Shown in pieces: positions 9,190 through 64,000 of a DNA stretch of 64,000 bases (within the stretch, counting starts at the first letter, position 1; each line of letters opens with the position of its first letter). The notes beneath the pieces were generated by a model that was not told the origin of the DNA, made no database searches, and was given only the letters and a program-made list of their open reading frames with translations. Source of the stretch: Hyphomicrobiales bacterium. GTDB taxonomy: Bacteria; Pseudomonadota; Alphaproteobacteria; Rhizobiales; Rhizobiaceae. Location of the stretch: positions 248,001 to 312,000 of the forward strand of contig JAJFHV010000010.1 in assembly GCA_021775415.1 (NCBI GenBank), given 5' to 3'. The position numbers were made by a program, and so were the translations under genes.

Positions 9190-9652
9190 CCAGGAAGTTG
9201 CAAAATAAATGTACTAAAAACTTTCGGAGTACGAGCGTTTCCCATTCATCCTCAATTCTTTCTTCTGTGATCGGTGGAGTTTGATTGTTGGATTCTGCAA
9301 AGTTGCGCATTGGGCGAATTTCAAATTTCATTGTTTTTAAATCTGGAATTTTTACCCAATGAATTAGGTTGTTGCGAAACTGGTCAATGGGTTGAAGTAG
9401 TTGTTCGAGTCCTAACCAGAATGGCCTGAATTCGGATTGTTGAGATTGCCGAATTAGATCATCGACTAAGGCGTATCGCGACCGAGTATTTGTCATTCGC
9501 GAAAATATGGATAGTGATTTTTGGGGGTCAACACCAAGAAGGTACGTAAACAAGAAAACCAATTCTAGTTCCAGATTTGCATATTCTGTTAGATACTGGC
9601 CTTTTAGGGCATCTAAGCGGGTAACATTCACGAGGTCGGGTAATTTTGCCAT
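9086..9652 (-). CDS. Hypothetical protein with HEPN-like RxxxxH motif
   Basis: From the ATG at 9652 it has 188 residues, largely alpha-helical, without signal or membrane segment. The motif FRNNLIHW fits the R-X4-H active-site pattern of HEPN domains, which are often RNases in toxin, abortive-infection or defence settings. No antitoxin-like partner (for example a nucleotidyltransferase) sits next to it. An in-frame GTG at 9664 is an alternative start. The 3' end overlaps the small plus-strand ORF. Lower coding polish than neighbouring genes and its orphan status suggest accessory DNA. Confidence 0.65.
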   Translation of the reverse strand: MAKLPDLVNVTRLDALKGQYLTEYANLELELVFLFTYLLGVDPQKSLSIFSRMTNTRSRYALVDDLIRQSQQSEFRPFWLGLEQLLQPIDQFRNNLIHWVKIPDLKTMKFEIRPMRNFAESNNQTPPITEERIEDEWETLVLRKFLVHLFCNFLATAEHQKRGALREIYLQRATDQTLEALTKLQATS

Positions 9653-9739
9653 GTCAGATACCACTCAAAAAGTAGATGAGAAAAAGGGCGATGAGGTTTT
9701 AGCACGGATGCTGAAATCCTCGCCCATACCCACTAACTC

Positions 9740-10198
9740 CTATTTTACCACATCCTCCATCGGCCAGTCGACCAGATGCTTCTCGTAGTCATCGGGATCA
9801 ACATTATCGCCGGGGATTGCCCTGCCCTTCACGCTAATGCCTGCTTCATGAACCGTTTCAGTGCTGCCGGAGACCAGCGGATGCCACCAGTGCAGATCCT
9901 TGCCCTCTCCCGCCAGACGGTAGCCGCAGGTCGGTGGCAACCAGCCCAGATCGCGAACAGTTTGTGGAGTCAATTCAATGCAGTCTGAAACTTTCTTAAA
10001 CCGGTTTTTGTAATCCTTGCACCGGCAAGTTTCGCAGTTGAACAATTCGCAGGCCAGATTGGTCCAGTAGATTTCTCCGGTGTCCCAGTCTTCAAGCTTG
10101 TTGAGGCAACAGCGCCCGCAACCATCGCAGAGCGATTCCCACTCATCAGGGGAGAGTTCTTCGAACGATTTGGTTTTCCAGAATGGTTCATCAGGCAT
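9740..10198 (-). CDS. YcgN-family cysteine cluster protein (UPF0260)
   Basis: The protein has 152 residues. The conserved cysteine set is visible: CDGCGRCC near the N-terminus, then [14 protein letters not shown] and CIELTP...CGYRL. The family is thought to bind zinc or an Fe-S cluster, but no reaction is established. Length and motif order match YcgN proteins. It stands alone between the orphan-gene islet and the divergent penicillin-binding protein gene. Confidence 0.9.
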
Positions 10199-52686: not shown

Positions 52687-53058
52687 TTAACTTCCCCGAT
52701 ACGTTGAGAATGAATAGGGTGAGACCAGCAAAGGCACGTGATAGTGGGATGAAGTATCACTGATACCAAACCGGATCGGAACTATATCAAGGAATGGTGG
52801 GTCGGTAATTTTTACACCGTTTTCCTTCAAATAATCCCCCACATGAAAGCGTAATTCATAATTCCCCGTTTTGAATTCTGTACCCGACAGGATGGGGCCA
52901 TCACACCGGCCATCGGAATTGGTTTTTGTGCTGTACAGCGAGGCTCGCTTCTCACCCTCCATGAGAAAAAGCTCAATCATCATATTCGATGCAGGCAGGC
53001 CGGACATGGTATCAAGTACATGAGTAGTCAGATAACCACCTGGATTTTCTTCAGCCAC
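52687..53058 (-). CDS. hiuH: 5-Hydroxyisourate hydrolase
   Basis: The protein has 123 residues of the transthyretin-like fold. The N-terminal [11 protein letters not shown] and the C-terminal SFSTYRGS tetrapeptide signature (YRGS) are diagnostic. It hydrolyses 5-hydroxyisourate to OHCU. It lacks the periplasmic signal found in some homologs, so it acts in the cytosol. It is the first gene of the minus-strand purine operon. Confidence 0.96.
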
Positions 53059-53221
53059 ACCGGGCTCCTTTCGGCATTCAATGGGACAGTTTACGTTATA
53101 GCCTTATTTGTGCGATAGCAGGTACACATTCAAAAGACTTTCAATGTTTTATATATAAACAATCTGCATTACTCGCGATAATTGGTAGAAAGAATTATCC
53201 CATTTTGCTGCCGGGAGCACC
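53059..53221. promoter_or_regulatory. Divergent promoter region of the purine catabolic genes
   Basis: This 163-base AT-rich gap separates the minus-strand hiuH operon from the plus-strand puuE-allA genes and must hold both promoters. A 12-base perfect palindrome TTTATATATAAA (53148-53159) is the most striking element. It may be a -10 region or an operator. No purine regulator gene lies in the window. Confidence 0.5.
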
Positions 53222-54640
53222 ATGACAAGATACCCAAGAGATTTGCAGGGATATGGCCCCCAAACAATCGATCCGAAATGGCCGGGTGGTGCCAAAATAG
53301 CCGTTCAATTCGTTGTCAACTACGAAGAAGGTGGCGAAAACAACATTCTCCACGGTGACAAAGCCTCCGAAGCCTTCTTGTCCGAGATCGTAGGTGCCGC
53401 GGCCTGGCCCGGTCAACGGCACTGGAATATGGAATCCATATACGAATACGGGGCCAGAGCCGGATTTTGGCGACTGCATCGCATGTTCACCTCTCGCGAC
53501 ATACCAGTCACGGTCTACGGAGTGGCAACTGCCTTGCAACGCTCACCTGCACAAGTAGCGGCAATGCAGGATGCAGATTGGGAAATTGCTTCTCATGGAT
53601 TGAAATGGATCGAATACAAGGATTTCAAGCCGGCCGAAGAGCGAAAGCACATCCGTGAGGCGATCCGCATTCACACGGAAGTCACCGGAGAACCGCCACG
53701 CGGCTGGTACACCGGGCGCTGCTCGGTCAATACGGTGGATCTGGTCTCTGAGGAAAATTGTTTTGATTATGTCTCGGATTCCTATTCTGACGACCTGCCC
53801 TATTGGCGTGAACATAAAAACAACGCTCAACTTGTCATCCCCTATACGCTGGATGCCAACGACATGCGGTTTGCTTCCCCTCAAGGATTCAACTCCGGGG
53901 ATCAATTTTTCACCTATCTCAAAGACAGCTTCGATGTGTTGTATGAAGAAGGCACCCAGGGCGCACCAAAGATGATGAACATCGGGCTGCATTGCCGCCT
54001 TGTCGGAAGGCCCGGACGTGCAGCTGCCCTTGCGCGGTTTCTTGATTATGTGAGGGGGCACAAGAAAGTCTGGCTGGCAAAACGGATAGAAATCGCCGAA
54101 CATTGGCAAAAGACCCATCCTTATGAGCCGCGTATGCAACCCTTTTCCCTATCCCGCAAAAAATTCGTTGAAGCCTATGGCGGGATATTTGAGCACAGTC
54201 CCTGGATTGCAGAACGTGCCTTCAAGCGTGAAACTGGTCCGGCTTTTGACACCGCAGCCGGCCTTCACGCCTTGCTGTGCAGAGAATTTCGATCCGCCAG
54301 CAAAAAGGAAAGATTGGGCGTATTAACTGCACACCCGGATCTTGCCGGCAAGCTTGCACAAGCAAAGCGGCTAACAGCAAGTTCCACGAACGAACAGGCG
54401 TCCGCCGGTCTTGATGCAATGACTGACAAGGAAAGATCAGAATTCCAAAAACTCAACACAGAGTATGTGCAGAAGCACGGGTTTCCTTTTATCATCGCAG
54501 TCCGTGACAACACCAAGGTGTCTATCCGCAAAGCCTTCAAGCTGCGCATCAAGAATGATAGCGCGACCGAATTTGAAACCGCGTGCAGGCAGGTTGAGCG
54601 GATCGCATATCACCGTCTCACCAATATTCTTCCAGAGTAG
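53222..54640 (+). CDS. Bifunctional allantoinase (PuuE) / OHCU decarboxylase (UraD)
   Basis: This is a 472-residue fusion. Residues about 1-305 are a NodB-like deacetylase of the PuuE type (QFVVNYEEGGENNILHGD, ASHGLKWIEYK, GWYTGRCSVNTV), which opens allantoin to allantoate without metal. Residues about 310-472 are the UraD domain with the histidine in LTAHPDLAGKLA and the downstream HGFPFIIAVRDNTK, which decarboxylates OHCU to S-allantoin. The fusion puts two successive steps in one chain. It is followed directly by allA. Confidence 0.93.
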   Translation: MTRYPRDLQGYGPQTIDPKWPGGAKIAVQFVVNYEEGGENNILHGDKASEAFLSEIVGAAAWPGQRHWNMESIYEYGARAGFWRLHRMFTSRDIPVTVYGVATALQRSPAQVAAMQDADWEIASHGLKWIEYKDFKPAEERKHIREAIRIHTEVTGEPPRGWYTGRCSVNTVDLVSEENCFDYVSDSYSDDLPYWREHKNNAQLVIPYTLDANDMRFASPQGFNSGDQFFTYLKDSFDVLYEEGTQGAPKMMNIGLHCRLVGRPGRAAALARFLDYVRGHKKVWLAKRIEIAEHWQKTHPYEPRMQPFSLSRKKFVEAYGGIFEHSPWIAERAFKRETGPAFDTAAGLHALLCREFRSASKKERLGVLTAHPDLAGKLAQAKRLTASSTNEQASAGLDAMTDKERSEFQKLNTEYVQKHGFPFIIAVRDNTKVSIRKAFKLRIKNDSATEFETACRQVERIAYHRLTNILPE

Positions 54641-55135
54641 ATGATGGAACAGATACTGATTCAACCGCTAACCCGCAAAGCGTTTCAGCCTTTCGGCGAT
54701 ATAATCGACACGAAAGAGGCAGAAAATTTCACCATCAACAATGGTATGTGCCAGCGATTTCACGATCTTACCCCGATTGAAACCGCTGGAGAAGACGCAA
54801 GACCCCTGATCAACATCTTCCGCTGTCAGCCGTATGATTTACCCCTTGAACTCAAGATGGTTGAGCGACATCCGCTTGGTAGTCAGGCATTCGTGCCACT
54901 ATCACAAAATCCATTCCTGGTGATTGTTGCGGAAGATGAGGATGGCAGGGCAATTCACCTACGAGCTTTTCTCACCGAGCCCGGGCAAGGCATCAATTTT
55001 CACCGAAATACCTGGCACGGTGTTTTAACTGCTTTAAACGAGGCCTGTGATTTTCTGGTTGTGGACAGGGGCGGCGAAGATAACAATCTTGAAGAATGCC
55101 ACTTCTCAGAACCTTTCTTGGTTTTAGCTCCGTAG
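54641..55135 (+). CDS. allA: Ureidoglycolate lyase
   Basis: The protein has 164 residues; it starts at the first of two ATG codons directly after the preceding stop. The cupin-like signature GINFHRNTWHGVLTAL and VDRGGEDNNLEECHF match AllA. It cleaves ureidoglycolate to glyoxylate and urea. The zero spacing to the puuE-uraD gene implies one transcript. Confidence 0.93.
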   Translation: MMEQILIQPLTRKAFQPFGDIIDTKEAENFTINNGMCQRFHDLTPIETAGEDARPLINIFRCQPYDLPLELKMVERHPLGSQAFVPLSQNPFLVIVAEDEDGRAIHLRAFLTEPGQGINFHRNTWHGVLTALNEACDFLVVDRGGEDNNLEECHFSEPFLVLAP

Positions 55136-55237
55136 TTTCACACGTTATCTTTCCACTCTAATTTTTAATGCTTCCTGCCGCTACGAATATACTCTAGATT
55201 ATTGTCATCTTATTGATAAAAATATGCGGGAATCCTC

Positions 55238-55873
55238 ATGACTGCAAAAGATCAGCAACGTTATTGCATGCGCCCGATGACTGTTGATGATCTTGACACC
55301 GTTGCACTGTGGTTTGAGCATCTGGCAGATCTATGCCTGTTTGACCGCAGTTCACCGGTGCCGGTTAACCGGACTGCACTGGAAGGCAACTGGAAGGACA
55401 GTTTGGCCTCCACCGGGCCACAGCGTGGCTACTGGTTTGCACTGGATGATGCCTCTGGAGATATCGTCGGGATCGCGGGAATCGAGAACATAAATTACAC
55501 GAATGGCGATGGCATTCTGGCGATTTACCTCTCTGATCAGGCTCGCGGAAAGGGTCTGGCAGCCAAGGCGAGCTGTTTACTGCTTGATCTTGCATTTGAT
55601 CAGTTGCGGTTGAACCGGATAACGTCCTACTATCGGGAAGACAACGACGTAACGGCCAAGCTGACCAATACAATTGGATTTTCCAAAGAAGGTCTTATGC
55701 GAAAGGCCTGGTTTGTTGGTGGCAAATACTTTGATATTGTTGTAGTGGGCATCTTGGGTGATGAGTGGGCAGAGTCCCGCAAGAAACTTGCAGTGGAATT
55801 GGGCGGTTCCACACAGTTGCAATTTGGACGCCCGCCATGGTCAGCGAGGGTGTGGCCAGAAGCGCTGACGTAG
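55238..55873 (+). CDS. GNAT family N-acetyltransferase
   Basis: The protein has 211 residues. The acetyl-CoA site appears as SDQARGKGLAAKASCLLLDL, followed by LRLNRITSYYREDNDVTAKL as in RimJ/RimL-type GNAT enzymes. The acceptor is unknown. The ATG has GGGA about 8 bases upstream. It follows allA by 102 bases and is probably a separate unit. Confidence 0.88.
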   Translation: MTAKDQQRYCMRPMTVDDLDTVALWFEHLADLCLFDRSSPVPVNRTALEGNWKDSLASTGPQRGYWFALDDASGDIVGIAGIENINYTNGDGILAIYLSDQARGKGLAAKASCLLLDLAFDQLRLNRITSYYREDNDVTAKLTNTIGFSKEGLMRKAWFVGGKYFDIVVVGILGDEWAESRKKLAVELGGSTQLQFGRPPWSARVWPEALT

Positions 55874-55950
55874 ATTCGGGGAGAAGTTTCAGTAATGTAC
55901 AATCGGGGCGCTGACGGCGTGGATTTCACGCAGTCGGTAGAATTTGTTTT

Positions 55951-57714
55951 ATGACTGGCGAAAGTAAAAATTCCGTTCGGCGCACGCTTCAGGCTGCGTT
56001 ATTTGCGGATGTCGTCGGCTATAGCCGCATGATGGGTGAAGACGAACTCGCCACCCTGAAAGCGGTCAGGGAAAATATCGGCATATTTCAAACTCACTGC
56101 AATGAACATGAAGGCACTATTGAACAAATCCGTGGTGACGGGGTGTTTGCAATTTTTGATAGCGCGGTAAATGCGGTGCAGTGCGCAATCGACGCTCAAC
56201 ACGCAATAAACTCGATGAACGAAAACATCGAGCGCCCGATAAAGTTCCGGGTTGGTATTAACCTTGGTGAGGTACTCCGTGATGATACCGGCCTTCATGG
56301 GGACAGTCTGAACATCGCCTCGAGACTTGAAAGCATGGCTGAACCTGGAACGGTTTGCGTAAGCAGTGCAGTTTACGAGCAAATCAGAAACAAACTTGCT
56401 TTTGGATATGAATGCCTGGGCGAGCAAAGACTGAAAAACATCAGTGAGCCCATCACTGCGTTTTGTGTTCACCGCGAAGTTGACGGTGTGACCATGGCGG
56501 CAAGCCCACGGGTTGCGACCGCTCAGCAAAAAGTTTCCCTGGCAACCAAACCGTCGGTTGTGGTTCTCCCGTTCAAGGATCGAAGTGGCAACCCGGATGA
56601 AGGCTGGTTTGCAGACGGCATCACAGAAGACATCACATCCAACCTTTCAAAATTTCACAATCTGTTTGTGATCGCCCGAAATTCGGCGTTCCTTTACAAG
56701 GATCGTGACATTCGACCTCAGCAGGTCGCCAAGGAACTGGGCGTTCGTTATGTGGCTCAAGGTACTATCCGCAAAGCAGGAAATCGCACCCGAATTTCAG
56801 TTGAATTGGCGGATGCCGAAACAGAGCACATGATCTGGGCAGAGCGATACGACCGCAACCTTGATGATATATTTGAGGTCCAGGACGAAATCGCAAACAC
56901 GGTAGTGGCTGCAACGGCAGTTCAGATTGAAGCCTCCGAGGCTGGCCGATCGAGTTTGATACCACCATCAGACATGGCTGCCTATGACCTGGTGCTTCAG
57001 GGGCAACAGTATGTTCTGAAATACCGACGTCCGGACAATCATGAAGCACGGCGGCTTTATCAGGCAGCATATGATGTGGATTCCAGATATGCACGGGCAA
57101 ATGCTGCGATTTCCAGAACAATGAACATCGACTGGCGATACGCATGGTGTGAAGATCAGGCGACGGCGCTCGATCAGGCACTGGAATATGCTCAAAACGC
57201 TATCGCACTGGATCAGGTGGATGCCCGTGGATTTGGTGAATTGGGTTTTGCGCATCTGTATCGCAAAGAGCACGATGCGGCACTTGATGCCTATGATCGG
57301 GCACGAAAACTAAACCCAAATGACGCTGACTTGATGTCGGATATGGCAGATGCACTTTGTCACGCCGGGCGATCCGAGGAAGGCGTTGAGCTGTTGAAAA
57401 AGGCGATGCAGCTCAACCCGTTCTATCCCGACCAGTATCTTTGGCACCTTGGCGGCGCCTACTACAATTTGAAGCAATATGAAGAAGCAATTGCCGCTTT
57501 ACAGAAAATGCATAATCCTGCTGAAGGACGGCGTCTGCTAGCTGCCAGCTGCGGACAGTTGGGACGCATTGAAGAGGCAAAATACCACGCCGAAAAAGTG
57601 CTGGAAGCGCACCCCAGTTTTTCACTAAAGGCCTGGGCGGACGTGCAACCCGACAAATTTCAAAAAGACGTAGATCATTTTGTCGAAGGCCTAGAAAAAG
57701 CCGGCCTTCACTGA
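55951..57714 (+). CDS. Class III adenylate/guanylate cyclase with TolB-N-like and TPR domains
   Basis: The protein has 587 residues. The N-terminal cyclase domain (about 12-175) has the metal aspartate in LFADVVGYSRMM and the second in IRGDGVFAIFD, with RVGINLGEV and NIASRLE. A middle domain (VVLPFKDRSGNPDEGWFADG, LGVRYVAQGTIRKAGN) is the TolB/CadC-like module common in these rhizobial cyclases. TPR repeats complete the C-terminus. No membrane segment is visible. It converges on the repeat-protein gene with 27 bases between stops. Confidence 0.9.
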   Translation: MTGESKNSVRRTLQAALFADVVGYSRMMGEDELATLKAVRENIGIFQTHCNEHEGTIEQIRGDGVFAIFDSAVNAVQCAIDAQHAINSMNENIERPIKFRVGINLGEVLRDDTGLHGDSLNIASRLESMAEPGTVCVSSAVYEQIRNKLAFGYECLGEQRLKNISEPITAFCVHREVDGVTMAASPRVATAQQKVSLATKPSVVVLPFKDRSGNPDEGWFADGITEDITSNLSKFHNLFVIARNSAFLYKDRDIRPQQVAKELGVRYVAQGTIRKAGNRTRISVELADAETEHMIWAERYDRNLDDIFEVQDEIANTVVAATAVQIEASEAGRSSLIPPSDMAAYDLVLQGQQYVLKYRRPDNHEARRLYQAAYDVDSRYARANAAISRTMNIDWRYAWCEDQATALDQALEYAQNAIALDQVDARGFGELGFAHLYRKEHDAALDAYDRARKLNPNDADLMSDMADALCHAGRSEEGVELLKKAMQLNPFYPDQYLWHLGGAYYNLKQYEEAIAALQKMHNPAEGRRLLAASCGQLGRIEEAKYHAEKVLEAHPSFSLKAWADVQPDKFQKDVDHFVEGLEKAGLH

Positions 57715-57741
57715 AGCCAAATTAGGGACTGAAGACGACGA

Positions 57742-58299
57742 TCAGTCAGAGTTATCGCCGCTTAACCTTGCGCCGGATACCCGTGCGCCCGACACTCTCG
57801 CACCACTTACCCTTGCACCCGACACTCTTGCTCCAGATACCCTGGCCCCTGAAACGCGTGCGCCACTGACCGCCATTCCGCCTCCGCCATCACCTTCAGG
57901 GTCAAGCAGTAGCTGACTTAGCGGCCCACTGGACATATCCAGTCGAAGGGAGAAGTCGGCTTGATCATAGGCCCAACACATAAGGTCCGATGAAAAATCA
58001 AAGTCCTGCGCCGCAATTTGCGTGTTTTCAGATTTTAGATTTTTAGCCTTAGCACCATCGCCGTGAACCAGAAAAATCGTCGGCACTTCGAGCTCATAGT
58101 ATTTACCGACATAGCTGTAGCCATAAATTCGGGCAAATCTTGTTTCTTTCCCGTTGGCGAGCTGATCGGAGAGAAAATGATTATTGCCGGTGCTTGCGTT
58201 GGATTTTAGTTCAGCACCATCCAAAATTTTATGTTCCATGTCGTCCATTACAAAGCCGAATAGAACAATCTTTGATGCGTCTAGTAGTGTTTCACCCAT
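57742..58299 (-). CDS. Candidate multi-core RiPP precursor with seven VSGAR repeats
   Basis: The protein has 185 residues and no signal peptide. Residues 1-137 form a unique acidic domain (MGETLLDASKIVLFGFVMDD at the start) that I do not recognise. A GDGGGG hinge follows, then seven exact VSGAR units (144-178), a final LSGD and the tail NSD. A GGAG site precedes the ATG. It lies 108 bases after the HEXXH peptidase of the YcaO-TfuA genes. The inference is a leader domain plus repeated cores. In the register A-R-V-S-G the repeat also resembles pentapeptide-repeat proteins (A(D/N)LXX), the main alternative. Cysteine occurs only in the N-domain. Confidence 0.75.
   Translation of the reverse strand: MGETLLDASKIVLFGFVMDDMEHKILDGAELKSNASTGNNHFLSDQLANGKETRFARIYGYSYVGKYYELEVPTIFLVHGDGAKAKNLKSENTQIAAQDFDFSSDLMCWAYDQADFSLRLDMSSGPLSQLLLDPEGDGGGGMAVSGARVSGARVSGARVSGARVSGARVSGARVSGARLSGDNSD
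57754..57870 (-). repeat. Coding tandem repeat, 15-bp units encoding VSGAR
   Basis: Seven consecutive 15-base units (57766-57870) plus a terminal LSGD unit (57754-57765) encode the repeat domain of the candidate precursor. No two units are identical in DNA: valine uses GTC, GTT, GTA and GTG; serine uses AGT, TCA, TCT, TCG and TCC; arginine uses CGC, CGG, AGG and AGA. The peptide is invariant across the seven. Confidence 0.95.
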
Positions 58300-58374
58300 A
58301 GTCTAACTCCGAATTGCTGCCCCGACTTGTATTTTGAAATTTCAGTTGTGCTGGAAATCCCCTAACTAACTAGA

Positions 58375-58403
58375 TTATCACAATAATACCGGTATCAAAG
58401 CAA
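58375..58403 (-). promoter_or_regulatory. Candidate sigma-70 promoter for the repeat-protein gene
   Basis: On the minus strand TTGCTT (58398-58403) and TGATAA (58375-58380) are separated by 17 bases, a good fit to -35 and -10 elements. Transcription would begin about 70 bases before the ATG at 58299. It overlaps the stop region of neither gene and would allow expression separate from the upstream biosynthetic genes. Confidence 0.4.
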
Positions 58404-58407
58404 CCCC

Positions 58408-59700
58408 CTATCCAAGCGTATGTGGAGTAACAGTCCTATCCGAAAACAAATGACTGTTTGGGGACATCTTTTCGAGGCGCGGTCCTGGTTTTACCAAGCC
58501 AATTTCGCGCATCCGAAAATTGTTTGATATGATACGATTGAAACGCCCGCCAGTGATGAACTTATCTACGTCTTGAAGGGCCACATTCACACCTTGATAG
58601 GTCAAGGTCTCCGAATCCAGCAACCGCCATGCATCCGCGAGATAGGTTCCAAGATAATCTCGTGCAAGTAAAAGCGCTTCTTTAAATCCTTCCGGATTCT
58701 GCCTGTAAAAATTGTCGAATTTTTCCTGCATCACAGCTACATACCTGTCGCTCCCTTCAAGTTTGTCCGAAAGGTCTTCCATCTCTGCGGAAACCAGGCC
58801 CTCGTCCAGCAAATTTTCATGGAAAACATCGACAAGAATATCAAACATTGCGCCTGTCAGCGGTTGAGAGAGTTTGTGTTCACTATCCCAACCGTCAACA
58901 AATTCCGACAGTACCTGATCGTTGGCCGCCAACCGGATTTGCGTGTTGTCAGAGGTCTCGGCAAAGCGGCTTAGCCGGTTCAGTGTGTAAAGGTTGCCAC
59001 TGGTGTTATCCAAAACCGCGTTGGTGACAGAATCAAAATGCAGGGATGCCAGCAGCGCAACCAGGTCTGCGGCAGACTCATGAAATCCAAAATACTCTGG
59101 ATTATCGTCATCCTGCGAGGGCATTCCGATTTCAGAATATATAATGCCATGGCCAATTTCATGGGCGATCACATCGAAGTTCAAGAAGAATGCGCTGTAG
59201 TTTTCCTCAACTTTTATGCCGCCAGCCTCAAGAAAACCCCACCCCATAAATGCATTATCAACCGATGGCAAAAGAGAGAGTTCAAGCCGCTCGTAATCCT
59301 CGCGAAAATGCCATTCAATTTTTCGATCGAAATACCGTTCCCACACATCAAGGGTAAAGCGGGCGCAGCCAAACAAATGGGCCGATTCAAATTCGCGCGT
59401 TCCAGGTTCCAGATGATCAAAATGTCCATCCGGGCCAGGTTGCGCCGGTGGATGAACTTCCGCGTGCCACGGGGGCAGGAACAATAATGGCTCACCGTTC
59501 TCATTTTCGTGCATACCGTAATGGGTCTGCTTGCCAACCGGATAGACGGTGTACATGCGCTCATCGGACGGGCCAGGCATGAGCGACCCGGATGGCGAAG
59601 ATACGTAGACAGTTTCCGGCTGCTGATCCTCATCAACTTCCGGCGCCTGCGGGAAAAGCCGGAACCGGGTCCCGGTAGTTTGTTCATGCATTACTGCCAT
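58408..59700 (-). CDS. Cytosolic zinc metallopeptidase, M4-like gluzincin
   Basis: From the ATG at 59700 (13 bases after the tfuA stop, GAGAAGAG upstream) the protein has 430 residues. The zinc motif is HEIGH (180-184) and the third ligand is probably E208 in FHESAADLVALL, 24 residues downstream, as in thermolysin-like gluzincins. The N-terminus is polar and has no signal peptide or propeptide-like region, unlike secreted M4 enzymes. By position it could remove the leader or separate repeat units of the precursor, which is an inference. Longer in-frame starts (59730, 59793) overlap tfuA. Confidence 0.8.
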   Translation of the reverse strand: MAVMHEQTTGTRFRLFPQAPEVDEDQQPETVYVSSPSGSLMPGPSDERMYTVYPVGKQTHYGMHENENGEPLLFLPPWHAEVHPPAQPGPDGHFDHLEPGTREFESAHLFGCARFTLDVWERYFDRKIEWHFREDYERLELSLLPSVDNAFMGWGFLEAGGIKVEENYSAFFLNFDVIAHEIGHGIIYSEIGMPSQDDDNPEYFGFHESAADLVALLASLHFDSVTNAVLDNTSGNLYTLNRLSRFAETSDNTQIRLAANDQVLSEFVDGWDSEHKLSQPLTGAMFDILVDVFHENLLDEGLVSAEMEDLSDKLEGSDRYVAVMQEKFDNFYRQNPEGFKEALLLARDYLGTYLADAWRLLDSETLTYQGVNVALQDVDKFITGGRFNRIISNNFRMREIGLVKPGPRLEKMSPNSHLFSDRTVTPHTLG

Positions 59701-59713
59701 AGTTCGGCTCTTC

Positions 59714-61066
59714 TCACTTTTGCCCGCCATTGTGGACGTGCAAATACTCTTGCACAAGCAATCGATAGAATGCTTCGCGATTAAGCAATCCAATTTCGTG
59801 AAGATGATTATCGATGTTTTCCGGAATTTCCTGTTTCAGAATTTGACAAAAATGCCAGTCCAGTAGAGCCACGTTTGGCAGCCCAATCTCTTGCGGTCCA
59901 GAAACTACGGAGCCCCCATCTCCTCTTTTGGCCAGCTTAGACCGAGCACGCTCAGCCAGCGTGTGGTATTTGTCACCGAGTTTCAATGTTTTGATCATTT
60001 CACGGCGGAATGCAGCAGAAGCAGTATCGATTGCATTTTGCTTGTGAACTTCTTCACCGAGCATTTCTTCGAGCGCTTCTGCACTCAAATCATTCTGCGC
60101 AAGCCATTGGTCCAGCGTTTTTCGATTCAATAAACCGTGCTGTTTGCGGAAATTATTGATCTTTTCCGCAATCGCACTGTGGTCAACTTGTTGTGGCGGC
60201 AGCGTTACTCCCGTCGTTGCAAGAAACCGAAGCATTGCGGCTTCTCTAACGCGATGAAATTCATCAGGTTTCAGTCTTAGCTCATTCAGCACTGCATCAG
60301 CGTCGATACCGTCGGATGAATCATCCTTGACGCTCTTTTCTCGCCATTTCGAAGTTGCGCGGTTCCAAAGATTTGTCCATTCAAATTCGAAAGATGCATC
60401 ATGAGCAGGGCCGTCATCTTCATCGGTTGCTTGCATTGCCTCCAGCATAGACACGGCATCCAGCTTTTTTTGATCAATCGAATTTTCTTTCAGCCAATGC
60501 TCAAACTTCCCGGCTTGCGAAGGCTTCAAGCCAATAGTTTGTGCATATGCAATCAGGGTTCTCCAGGTTCGATCCCCGTAGTCCCGCGACTTTGCGAATG
60601 CGCCGATTTCGGCGGCTACCGATTTGGGCAATGCTTTTTCTGCTGCGGCGTAATTCAGGGTTGCACGAATACTGACCATCGGCTCCGAGAGCGCCGGATA
60701 CCCAAGCTCTGGTGGCCCATGAGTAACAGCAACCTCATCGTCATCTTCCAACTTGCCCGACTGATAGTCCTGAAAAATTTCTCCAACACCTTGCATACCG
60801 AAGTCCGCCAATTCTGCAGCCCGCAACGCACCCATGCTCGATGCACCAAACACATGCACGCCTTGCGACATCGCCCACAGGATTTCCTTGTGCCAGATGG
60901 ACGCTACACCATCAAAATATCCGTCGATAATACCAATACATTTGGGGTTCAAATCCATGGCTCGATAGACGTCACCCTGTGCAGCCGGCGGCAGGCAGGT
61001 CGCTCCAATAACCGCACGCACTTCGGTCTTGGATATGGTCGGGCCAATGAAAACTACCGTGCTCAT
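59714..61066 (-). CDS. TfuA-domain protein, partner of YcaO
   Basis: The protein has 450 residues. The TfuA domain (about 1-135) shows VVFIGPTIS, IGIIDGYFDGVASIWHKEIL and HVFGASSMGALRAAELADFG. The C-terminal 300 residues are helical and include two related segments, HGLLNRKTLDQWLAQNDLS and IGLLNREAFYRLLVQEYL. TfuA proteins recruit or supply sulfur to YcaO enzymes for backbone thioamide formation, and TfuA was first found in the trifolitoxin locus. The start overlaps the ycaO stop by 4 bp. Confidence 0.93.
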   Translation of the reverse strand: MSTVVFIGPTISKTEVRAVIGATCLPPAAQGDVYRAMDLNPKCIGIIDGYFDGVASIWHKEILWAMSQGVHVFGASSMGALRAAELADFGMQGVGEIFQDYQSGKLEDDDEVAVTHGPPELGYPALSEPMVSIRATLNYAAAEKALPKSVAAEIGAFAKSRDYGDRTWRTLIAYAQTIGLKPSQAGKFEHWLKENSIDQKKLDAVSMLEAMQATDEDDGPAHDASFEFEWTNLWNRATSKWREKSVKDDSSDGIDADAVLNELRLKPDEFHRVREAAMLRFLATTGVTLPPQQVDHSAIAEKINNFRKQHGLLNRKTLDQWLAQNDLSAEALEEMLGEEVHKQNAIDTASAAFRREMIKTLKLGDKYHTLAERARSKLAKRGDGGSVVSGPQEIGLPNVALLDWHFCQILKQEIPENIDNHLHEIGLLNREAFYRLLVQEYLHVHNGGQK

Positions 61067-62313
61067 GTCCCGATTCCCGATCTTGGGCCTGGAACGTAGC
61101 TGTCATCGTCGTGCGGGGCTTCCAACCCCGGAATGATCACCCGGACCACCGGGATATCGAAATCAGGATTTGTCAGATCCACCGAAATAACTTGCGCAAT
61201 CCCAACCGAATTCAGGCACGATATCAGCCAATCCAGATCATCCTGAAGTGTTTCAGCCTCATGGCTGGGAACATCGCCGAACCGGAGTACCGGTGTTTCG
61301 TCTGAAATAAGTGCACGCGCTGCTTTGTGCTTTTCGTGCAAACCTGCTTCCAGATATTCATCTTCAAGCAGATCATCCCTTGCCCCGGATATATAGGTTA
61401 GTCGTGTCTGAACCGCTTCGGTTAGCGTTCGTGACAGAGCGATCGCCTTGCTTGGGTGGCACCCTGCCCCAGCTCCAATGTGTTCAGGTGCAGAGGTTTC
61501 CGGGTTGATTAAGAGACCATAGAAGGCAGTAATCCCGATGTCACTCGTGGTTTCCCAAATAGCCAATTCCAGGCCGGCTTTTGTTATCCGGTCGATAATT
61601 TCTCGACATTCCGGGTCATCCACGCTCTCCACCTTCAGCCGCGTCACCTCGCGATCACCGGGCTGCATTTGATGCCAGATCGTCGTAGCATCGCGTTCAA
61701 TCACCTCGCAAATTGCATGGCATTGGGCCTCCAGAATATGATTACCCGAAGCCAACCCATTGGTGCTGCAGTGAAAACACCCATGCCCGGGCGGACTGGG
61801 TTGCGTATAGTCCGCATGCACCATCTCAAAAGGAACCCAGATGTTTTGCCGATCGATGAGGTTGATACCTTCAATCCACAAAATGCGGGTGCCCGCATCA
61901 AAATATGAACCAGCGACTTGCTGCAATTGGGCAGGATCAGCAAGCACATGATCCTTCACCAGATCATCATAAGTACCGTAGATAACCGGACGGGTGATAT
62001 GTTCTGCATGCCAGGTTTCAATTGACTCCATTAATGCGGATGCCTTTGCCGCATCAAGATCAAGGCCCTTGCCCTGGGACACAGCGACAGAACGCGAATT
62101 GGGTCGCGTAACCATGACGACCGGAATGCCAACGCGATCCAAACCGGTAATATTGGCAATTCTGGTGATTCCCATTTGGATGAGATGTGGTTTGGCACGA
62201 GCGATTGTATCAGTTGGGGAAATGATCCTGTGGGTGCCAGTCCGGTAGAATTTCGTCGGTGCCTTGGCAGCTGCGGCTCTTTTGGTGGTTTTGCCAGCGC
62301 GACCTGTTTTCAT
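61063..62313 (-). CDS. YcaO-family ATP-dependent peptide-modifying enzyme
   Basis: The protein has 416 residues. The three ATP/Mg motifs are seen: SALMESIETWHAEH (E96, E99), AICEVIERDATTIW (E203, E206, R207) and RTLTEAVQTRLTYI (E299, Q302). It ends with the proline-rich tail SYVPGPRSGIGT. YcaO enzymes phosphorylate backbone amides to form azolines, amidines or thioamides. With TfuA next to it and no E1-like partner in the window, thioamidation is the likelier chemistry. Both ends overlap neighbours by 4 bp. Confidence 0.94.
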   Translation of the reverse strand: MKTGRAGKTTKRAAAAKAPTKFYRTGTHRIISPTDTIARAKPHLIQMGITRIANITGLDRVGIPVVMVTRPNSRSVAVSQGKGLDLDAAKASALMESIETWHAEHITRPVIYGTYDDLVKDHVLADPAQLQQVAGSYFDAGTRILWIEGINLIDRQNIWVPFEMVHADYTQPSPPGHGCFHCSTNGLASGNHILEAQCHAICEVIERDATTIWHQMQPGDREVTRLKVESVDDPECREIIDRITKAGLELAIWETTSDIGITAFYGLLINPETSAPEHIGAGAGCHPSKAIALSRTLTEAVQTRLTYISGARDDLLEDEYLEAGLHEKHKAARALISDETPVLRFGDVPSHEAETLQDDLDWLISCLNSVGIAQVISVDLTNPDFDIPVVRVIIPGLEAPHDDDSYVPGPRSGIGT

Positions 62314-64000
62314 TCTGCTTTGTTTCCGTTGACCTGTCTGAGTTTCAGATTTTGTGGATCGTAAGGTGGCCGGTCCAGTATCTTTGCCGCACTGACATCA
62401 CCACATATTTCTACAGACAATTCCGCCCCGGAAGCAAACTGATTTGTTCTCAGATATGCAAAGGCCAATTTTTTCCTGGTCCGGTGCCCATAGCTGCCAG
62501 AGGTTATAAGCCCGCATACTTTACCACCCGAAAGCACCGAGTGCAGCCCGAATGGATCGCGACCTTCACCCGTGATTTCGATGAGCTTCAAGCTCATTTC
62601 AACGGGTCGACTGGCGAGCACCTCACATCCGGAAAACTGCCTTCCTTCCAATTTTAACAGACGATCAAGACCAGCTTCAATTGGCGAACGCTCAGTGGAA
62701 AGGTCCATACCCCAGGCAGGATATCCCTTTTCCAACCGCATGGAGTTGGCCGCGTAGGAACCGAAATGGCCAATTCCAAATTCAACACCAGCACTCATGA
62801 TAGTGCGATAAAGTTTTGGGAGAACTGCCATTGGCGCATGAAACTCCCATCCGGTTTCCCCGACATAGGATACCCGGAGTGCGAGAACCTTAATCCCTGC
62901 AATTTCAATTACTTGTGACGACAACCACTTAAACTGATTCAAACAGTTATTTCCGTTTGCAATCTTCGTCAGTACTTGCGGCGCGAGTGGACCCATCATT
63001 GCGAGGATGCCTTTCGACTCCGTCACATCATCCACAGACACATCGCCGATAGACACTGCATGAAGGCGCAACAAGTCATGATCATGATGCCGGGCGGCAG
63101 CGGCAGACGTGAGGTAGAAATGATCCTCCGCAAGTTTTACGACGGTAAATTCCGATGCAATGCCTCCCTTGGGAGTAAGCGCATGAATGAGCCCTACCCG
63201 ACCGACTGTCTTGGGTGGCGTGTTGGCACCAAGCGTGTTCATGAACCGCTCAGCACCTTTGCCATTTACCTCAAATTTCGAGAAAGGCGACAGATCAGAA
63301 ACACCGACGCGGGTTGATACAATTTCACATTCACGCGCTACGGCGTTGAACCAGTCGGGTCGGTTGAATGTTAGCGTTGCTTCACGGCTTTCATCAGCGC
63401 CAGCAAACCAGTTTGGCCGTTCCCAACCATACGCTTGGCCGAACACCGCACCGGCTGCATCCATTTCACTGTGGACCGTGGACATGAATCGTGGCCTTCC
63501 GGCCTCGCGCTCTTCATAGGGAAAATGGATAGCAAACTGATTACCGAAACTTTCGACCGCCTTATCTATTCTGTAGTTGCGGTCTGCGAAATTTCCGAAG
63601 CGACGTGGGTCAAGTGCGAGCGCGTCCATTGGAGGTTCTTCGCCAATCATCCATTCGGCAAGAAATTTTCCGGCACCCCCACCTTCCATTACACCCATGC
63701 TGGAGCCAGTGAGCAGCCAACAGTTTTTCACCCCAAATGCCGGGCCAATTAGTGCATTGGCATCAGGCGTGAAGGTTATCGGTCCATTGACGATTGTTTT
63801 GATGCCGCCTTCTGCAAGCGCTGGCACCCGCTCCATCGCCGCTTCAATAATATGTTCCACATTGTCGAGATCACCCGGTACGAGCTCCATGCCAAATTCC
63901 GGTGGCACCTGGTCAATTGACCACGGCTTGCCGTTTTTCTCGTAAGGCCCGACAATCAGGCCATCGCGCTCCTGGCGCACATACCAGCTTTCTTCTGGGT
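62310..64000 (-). CDS. FAD-dependent oxidoreductase fused to GcvT-type aminomethyltransferase, 5' truncated
   Basis: The frame is open to the right edge (the last codons read PEESWYVRQERDG), leaving about 560 residues. The first part is the C-terminal half of a DAO-like FAD oxidoreductase (PDANALIGPAFGVKNCWLLT, GAGKFLAEWMIGEEP). From about STVHSEMDAAGAVFGQAYGW a GcvT folate-binding domain follows (RVGVSDLSPFSKFEVNGKGA, LRVSYVGETGWEFHAP, YGHRTRKKLAFAYL). The family includes dimethylglycine and sarcosine dehydrogenases. The stop overlaps the ycaO start (ATGA), so it may be a tailoring enzyme or merely a co-transcribed metabolic gene. Confidence 0.88.
   Translation of the reverse strand, partial: PEESWYVRQERDGLIVGPYEKNGKPWSIDQVPPEFGMELVPGDLDNVEHIIEAAMERVPALAEGGIKTIVNGPITFTPDANALIGPAFGVKNCWLLTGSSMGVMEGGGAGKFLAEWMIGEEPPMDALALDPRRFGNFADRNYRIDKAVESFGNQFAIHFPYEEREAGRPRFMSTVHSEMDAAGAVFGQAYGWERPNWFAGADESREATLTFNRPDWFNAVARECEIVSTRVGVSDLSPFSKFEVNGKGAERFMNTLGANTPPKTVGRVGLIHALTPKGGIASEFTVVKLAEDHFYLTSAAAARHHDHDLLRLHAVSIGDVSVDDVTESKGILAMMGPLAPQVLTKIANGNNCLNQFKWLSSQVIEIAGIKVLALRVSYVGETGWEFHAPMAVLPKLYRTIMSAGVEFGIGHFGSYAANSMRLEKGYPAWGMDLSTERSPIEAGLDRLLKLEGRQFSGCEVLASRPVEMSLKLIEITGEGRDPFGLHSVLSGGKVCGLITSGSYGHRTRKKLAFAYLRTNQFASGAELSVEICGDVSAAKILDRPPYDPQNLKLRQVNGNKAE

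Follow-up and report, generated by a model that had tools for sequence, protein, structure and literature searches.

Few product classes of YcaO-TfuA pairs are characterised so far, and a preprint of 2026 puts the number preceding its own at four. TfuA hydrolyses ThiS-COSH and thereby feeds YcaO (PMC13185837). In the thiovarsolin pathway of Streptomyces varsoviensis (VarA/VarY/VarT), as its report outlines it, a YcaO-TfuA pair is accompanied by a single precursor bearing up to five imperfect repeats with an APR/GPR core that ends in arginine, the thioamide lies between the Pro and Arg of the repeated APR cores, the product is N-acetylated, and the cluster comprises a heme-oxygenase-like dehydrogenase and no specific protease (PMC6511847). 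In the StdA/StdGH system of Streptomyces thermodiastaticus, YcaO-TfuA thioamidates the residue before a lysine, between Asn and Lys, with the involvement of a protease domain (PMC13174530). The locus considered here lies in a window of 64,000 nucleotides from a Hyphomicrobiales bacterium of the Rhizobiaceae (contig JAJFHV010000010.1, positions 248,001 to 312,000), in which ycaO, tfuA and a metallopeptidase gene adjoin the gene of a repeat-tailed protein (57742-58299; Table 1). It is a real, conserved and apparently undescribed cassette that looks built as a multi-core pathway for thioamidated, ribosomally synthesised and post-translationally modified peptides (RiPPs); the reading favoured here, a YcaO-TfuA RiPP cassette with several cores and with the 57742-58299 protein as its precursor, is probably correct.

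The locus shares with the thiovarsolin cluster the enzyme pair, the single repeat-bearing precursor and the Arg-ended core, but it is distinguished by exact five-residue units, a leader that spans about 137 residues and matches no Pfam family, and its own peptidase, GNAT acetyltransferase and nucleotide cyclase. Its units are VSGAR, and no VarO/VarL/VarS-type enzyme, heme oxygenase, ATP-grasp ligase or amidinotransferase was found among the 10 open reading frames (ORFs) of 52687-63998 that were scanned. The likeness is one of layout, and homology of the precursors is not claimed. StdA/StdGH, unlike the present locus, has one SNKEWQE motif, an MNIO enzyme with a carbamoyltransferase, and an S8/S53 peptidase (PMC13174530). 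Moreover, both enzymes have their closest NCBIfam models and PDB relatives in the pair for McrA glycine thioamidation in methanogens, although neither score reaches the equivalog cut-off (239 of 365 bits and 203.1 of 235.2 bits) and the linked candidate substrate is repeat-tailed and bacterial. Lastly, the peptide modification/maturation models TIGR04510 and TIGR04500 are matched by the cyclase-TPR protein and the TfuA C-terminus, respectively, far below their curated cut-offs (55.3 of 400 and 23.9 of 180 bits).

The repeat tail and its leader

The seven VSGAR units of the tail differ from one another at synonymous positions alone: across their 21 pairs, 106 nucleotide differences are synonymous and none is nonsynonymous, and when the same number of changes was placed at random, all seven units still read VSGAR in 0 of 200,000 simulations. 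It is thus the peptide, and not the DNA, that is conserved, and chance or DNA slippage as the origin of the array is ruled out by this synonymous-only variation. The same tendency extends over 50 arrays (edge units included; L080, L134 and L135 excluded from 53 non-redundant loci), where 3481 synonymous stand against 807 nonsynonymous differences between units; for single changes placed at random, a sample of 16 codons gives an expectation of about 27% synonymous. Among 97 proteins distinct over their last 120 residues, exact repeats are of AKVSG in 44, of ARVSG in 22 and of 14 other units in a further 22, which makes 16 exact unit types with periods of 4-7; the others include VSGGR, VSGSR, VSGKR, GMNAR, GANAR, VRGAS and ANVSG, as well as units of other period, namely AYSGGK (6), DLVGRS (6), AGSFVRS (7) and GMNV (4). 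Most units carry a small residue ahead of Arg or Lys, and most contain a hydrophobic residue. In the 65 of the 80 loci compared (see below) that have VSGA-like units the copy number ranges from 4 to 10 and is most often 7 (41/65). Each lineage thus keeps one unit and exchanges it wholesale.

The leader, conversely, contains all 13 columns that are invariant across 21 aligned rows. The combination of a conserved leader with a unit that changes wholesale is expected of RiPP cores, not of a pentapeptide-repeat fold, and the 57742-58299 protein would be the substrate of the YcaO-TfuA pair. Its AlphaFold2 model (52 sequences) is of modest quality, with a mean predicted local distance difference test (pLDDT) score of 65.7, and shows a small strand-rich leader core (block pLDDT of 75-93 at residues 11-30 and 41-90), followed by a repeat tail at a pLDDT of about 45 that is without strands and left unstructured in the model. 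Foldseek returned no PDB fold for this model (best E 2.8), no Pfam family occurs outside the tail in more than 2 of 52 members, and the PDB profile matches of the precursor fall on the tail region, except for three weak ones. The earlier note on this DNA had described an N-terminal domain of 137 residues, a glycine hinge and seven VSGAR units; the protein has indeed 185 residues, a leader of that approximate length and seven exact units, whereas conservation among relatives does not extend to the glycine run. Precursor length in relatives varies from about 150 (L144) to 313 residues. In two of three relatives scanned, the leader has inserts that resemble phage domains of the virion, head-decoration or tail-fibre type (PHROGs, lowest E 9.9e-9), at residues 30-84 of the L133 precursor and 36-138 of the L119 precursor.

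Enzymes and conservation of the cassette

The YcaO protein lies, by its sequence, nearer the thioamidating than the azoline-forming type: its best PDB relative is 6pe3 (MJ1094) with 134.8 bits against 78.9 bits for TruD, and it scores higher with TIGR03266 (239 bits, cut-off 365) than with the SagD-type model TIGR03604 (155.2 bits). Of three patterns for its ATP motifs, applied to 94 ORFs, one matched 0 and was too strict to use; the other two matched 87 and 83. TfuA has 6xp8 as its nearest PDB relative (E 4.4e-31) and retains the serine of the SMGALR-type motif in 95/95 ORFs. Its C-terminal extension (residues ~270-342), which gives SurA_N_3/PpiC-like and TIGR04500 matches below the cut-offs, is possibly a substrate-binding part; TfuA is shorter in several relatives.

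The peptidase carries HExxH in 95/95 ORFs, a count in which genomes retrieved twice enter twice, and a stricter pattern is matched in 91/95, the remaining four reading HESAGD with the Glu retained. H180, E181, H184, E208 and H275 are invariant across 24 rows, and E208 provides the downstream Glu zinc ligand that, with HExxH, characterises the M4/M36 peptidases. The predicted structure (pLDDT 87.9) has its best Foldseek matches in M36 (E 2.3e-6) and thermolysin (E 1.7e-5), although the sequence remains below the cut-off of the Pfam family Peptidase_M4 (13.1 vs 22.4 bits). No export signal was seen on inspection of the peptidase by eye.

Relatives were gathered at several levels. A precursor search of 297 genomes of the same family matched 34, of which 19 (own included) share the leader; the other 15 were set aside because the match starts at query residue 93 or later, mostly in the repeat tail (L048 inspected). 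At class level, with E up to 1e-6, matches came from 5 of the 385 genomes, the own genome among them. Scanning genome contigs with the leader alignment gave 146 relatives, the best 80 of which form the locus set; this set leans to close relatives, overlaps the family set, and includes Ruegeria, Leisingera, Roseovarius, Labrenzia, Nitratireductor, Aminobacter, Mesorhizobium, Aurantimonas and Paracoccus together with metagenome bins, some labelled Gammaproteobacteria. In addition, tblastn with the leader found 51 plasmid records (49 Rhizobium and 2 Paracoccus), 6 of which were inspected, including 5 of the 49 from Rhizobium.

Neighbours were identified by building a profile for each gene and scanning the loci with it. 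Seventy-two of the 80 loci have at least 4.8 kb upstream, and the 8 shorter ones were set aside, among which L072, L112, L117 and L125 still show ycaO, tfuA and the peptidase gene. The linkage of homologs to ycaO and tfuA, by which the earlier note proposed to judge its reading, holds together with the peptidase in 67/72 loci, 17/19 family genomes and 3/4 other class genomes, but a branch devoid of ycaO and tfuA exists. The peptidase gene itself stands beside the precursor gene in 68/72 loci. The five exceptions to the 67 are L073, L074, L094, L122 and L135, and those among the family genomes are L045 and G038. Over all sets, the missing genes are found elsewhere in the genome in five exceptions: this applies to G150 (L045), where a contig end interrupts the locus and the three genes lie together on another contig, to the three Leisingera/Rhodobacteraceae loci (L073, L074, L094), whose ycaO-tfuA-peptidase set lies apparently on the same contig, ~17-18 kb off, and to G529 (L144), in which tfuA, the peptidase gene and the precursor gene (GMNV x4) are adjacent and the sole YcaO found sits on another contig. 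In one gamma metagenome-assembled genome (MAG), two peptidase copies with 89% identity occur on different contigs (L124, L149), which suggests two cassette copies or mixed strains.

On the other side of the precursor gene, the comparison covered the 72 loci in which the downstream sequence reached 2.9 kb or more. A cyclase-TPR homolog (at least 200 bits), usually convergent, is present in 69/72 of them, in 18/19 family genomes and in 2/4 class genomes. The GNAT gene follows the cyclase gene in 64/72 loci (weak in L129), 10/19 family genomes (weak in L049) and 1/4 class genomes, and its higher frequency in the locus set is due to the lean of the best 80 to close relatives. GNAT (at least 100 bits) accompanies V-S-G-type units in 67/75 C-termini and other units in 0/22, counted irrespective of contig ends; it is restricted to the V-S-G type, as though the cap belonged to a single type of product.

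A proposed pathway and its rivals

In the pathway proposed here, the folded leader of about 137 residues would present a disordered tail with seven identical VSGAR cores to YcaO and TfuA, which, with a ThiS-type carrier as the source of sulfide (two matches to the ThiS family are present in the genome), would swap a backbone oxygen for sulfur in each unit. Since most units place a small residue before Arg or Lys, as do thiovarsolin and StdA, the thioamide is predicted at the residue before the basic one (A-R in VSGAR), the alternative being the glycine, as in McrA. Thermolysin-like enzymes favour a hydrophobic residue after the cut; the peptidase would thus cleave the tail plausibly at R|VSGAR and free a pentapeptide in several copies. 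Capping of the new N-termini would fall to the linked GNAT in the V-S-G branch, which includes the present locus, and the cyclase-TPR protein may sense or regulate. The suggestion of the earlier note that several copies of a short modified peptide arise from one precursor is in this way partly supported.

More tentatively, and with rather less assurance than the assignment of the cassette itself, these loci may constitute an undescribed class of multi-core thioamidated RiPPs in the Rhizobiaceae, the Roseobacter clade and some other Proteobacteria, with swappable cores of 4-7 residues, a dedicated cytoplasmic protease, GNAT capping in the V-S-G branch and cyclase-linked cyclic-nucleotide signalling. 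If so, the product could be an internal or quorum-type signal and not an antibiotic; no dedicated exporter was seen. Among the papers listed in literature searches, most of them covered by their listing and not in full, no description of the cassette family was recognised, and none was found for VSGAR, VSGAK or GMNAR. The survey of TfuA clusters (PMC8120280), which notes more than 500 clusters in Rhizobium, does not describe such a precursor, peptidase, GNAT or cyclase in the sections consulted, the words 'repeat', 'pentapeptide' and 'protease' do not occur in its main text, and the marine surveys PMC9502895 and PMC8269258, in the passages concerned, name 'TfuA-related' clusters merely as a class. 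The PMC8120280 survey used RiPPER at its standard settings, which retain precursors of 20-120 residues (PMC6511847); this window, used in both TfuA surveys consulted, would miss precursors of ~150-313 residues. Moreover, the Pfam label 'pentapeptide repeat' can hide such precursors, and the present protein may itself be so annotated (PF00805). The cassette, which recurs in many bacteria of sea and soil, occurs in the culturable marine genera Ruegeria, Leisingera, Roseovarius and Labrenzia and brings with it a natural series of core variants. With a candidate protease and a candidate acetyltransferase of its own, it allows the route by which the precursor becomes the product to be tested in vitro.

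Several observations weigh against this pathway. Not every member of the family needs ycaO and tfuA: all five Rhizobium plasmid loci inspected are arranged as cyclase-peptidase-precursor, with neither gene in the stretch read, and whole-plasmid searches, confined to the plasmids, found no TfuA in the three so searched and no YcaO in the one so searched. Furthermore, the gamma MAG of L122 and the genome G038 have leader, tail and peptidase, and no TfuA or YcaO was found in the former genome nor in the latter, which is 88% complete. Paracoccus L050 and L135 carry ycaO-tfuA and lack the peptidase. GNAT is missing in 9/19 family and 3/4 class genomes (some contigs end early). As to the cores, 9/97 C-termini have no exact repeat (five Rhizobium loci, L049, L050, L135 and L142), GMNV and ANVSG have no basic residue, and GANAR has no large hydrophobic one. 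Lastly, when the neighbouring ORFs of 34 loci were compared all against all and clusters present in at least 3 loci were retained, no widely recurrent transporter emerged; one ABC-type cluster occurs in 4/34 loci, and three ORFs scanned in two of these represent different kinds of ABC transporter.

This shortage of transporters also bears on the view that the tail is modified yet retained, as a C-terminal extension of a folded domain with many thioamides, in the manner of McrA and uL16, with the peptidase maturing or degrading the protein. Such a view is unlikely though not negligible: it accords with the size of the leader and its partial folding in the model, with the McrA glycine thioamidation models as the nearest ones of both enzymes, with D as the last residue of no fewer than 90% of the 21 precursor sequences aligned, and with the reported recognition of a folded surface by Escherichia coli YcaO (PMC13063428). 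Units that vary little or not at all within one protein and are wholly different between lineages, however, fit interchangeable cores better, and an endopeptidase-like gene stands beside 68/72 copies of the precursor gene.

The loci without ycaO and tfuA would be accommodated if peptidase, repeat protein and cyclase were the real system and ycaO-tfuA an optional add-on that alters the product, the units otherwise acting unmodified. The Rhizobium plasmid loci, G038 and L122, in which the cyclase, the peptidase and the repeat protein are retained, speak for this arrangement; it is nonetheless improbable, in that only 1 of 23 genomes in the genome-sampled sets lacks TfuA, 6 of the 7 ycaO-less loci have other units (SRSGG-like, SSGGR), and Paracoccus has dispensed with the peptidase instead. 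Two of the ycaO-less Rhizobium plasmids (L051, L052) have a small extra gene of no assigned function after the precursor gene, at ~9600-9955, and in that of Rhizobium beringeri TP66 (L055) the cyclase and precursor frames are interrupted, being intact in the four other Rhizobium plasmids read.

Least probable of all is a small pentapeptide-repeat protein folded as a right-handed beta-helix, with ycaO and tfuA serving another substrate, a fold against which the earlier note had proposed to test its reading: the tail does pass the PF00805 gathering cut-off (21.5 vs 20.2 bits), which also weighs against the RiPP reading, 35/52 relatives match that family at E up to 0.1, the best PDB matches of the precursor profile are designed pentapeptide-repeat proteins (beta1 being such a design), and ARVSG loosely fits the family pattern, A(D/N)Lxx, but relatives with the same leader have periods of 4, 6 or 7, or five-residue units off the pattern (the own locus having period 5), the modelled tail is strandless and of low confidence, and seven repeats make less than two coils of a helix with four repeats per coil.

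Layout of the locus and its surroundings

The cassette and its recurrent neighbours are laid out as given in Table 1. Of the arrangement described in the earlier note, the 4-bp overlap of ycaO and tfuA is confirmed, both genes being far above their Pfam cut-offs, and so is the HExxH peptidase gene 13 bp after tfuA, with its ATG at 59700, a start chosen because longer ones would run into tfuA; a gap of 108 bp separates it from the precursor gene. The four genes are as placed in that note, whose span omitted the two recurrent neighbours at 55238-57714.

Table 1. Features of the cassette and its recurrent neighbours, in positions of the window.
Feature	Position	Strand	Remarks
ycaO	61063-62313	minus	PF02624, 284.8 bits
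tfuA	59714-61066	minus	PF07812, 153.4 bits
Zinc metallopeptidase gene, thermolysin-like (M4/M36) fold	58408-59700	minus	HExxH, predicted fold
Candidate precursor gene, 185 residues: leader domain (residues 1 to ~137) and repeat tail	57742-58299	minus	
Seven exact VSGAR units in tandem (predicted core peptides), followed by degenerate LSGDN	57766-57870	minus	
Class III nucleotide cyclase fused to TPRs	55951-57714	plus	Convergent with the precursor gene, 27 bp between
GNAT acetyltransferase	55238-55873	plus	Directly upstream of the cyclase gene; PF13302, 58.3 bits (cut-off 25.4)

Promoter-like and terminator-like sites at the locus occur at a frequency near the chance level. Beyond the cassette, the stretch 52687-55135 encodes functions of purine (urate) catabolism, namely HIUase, an OHCU decarboxylase fused to a polysaccharide-deacetylase domain, and ureidoglycolate lyase. 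At the other end, a DAO/GcvT gene (dimethylglycine or sarcosine dehydrogenase-like; 62310-63998, minus strand) overlaps the start of ycaO with its end by 4 bp, and a second gene of DAO/GcvT appearance, coding for 820 residues, lies beyond the window. A DAO/GcvT gene is found nearby in 3 of 34 compared loci, the present one included, and looks lineage-specific.

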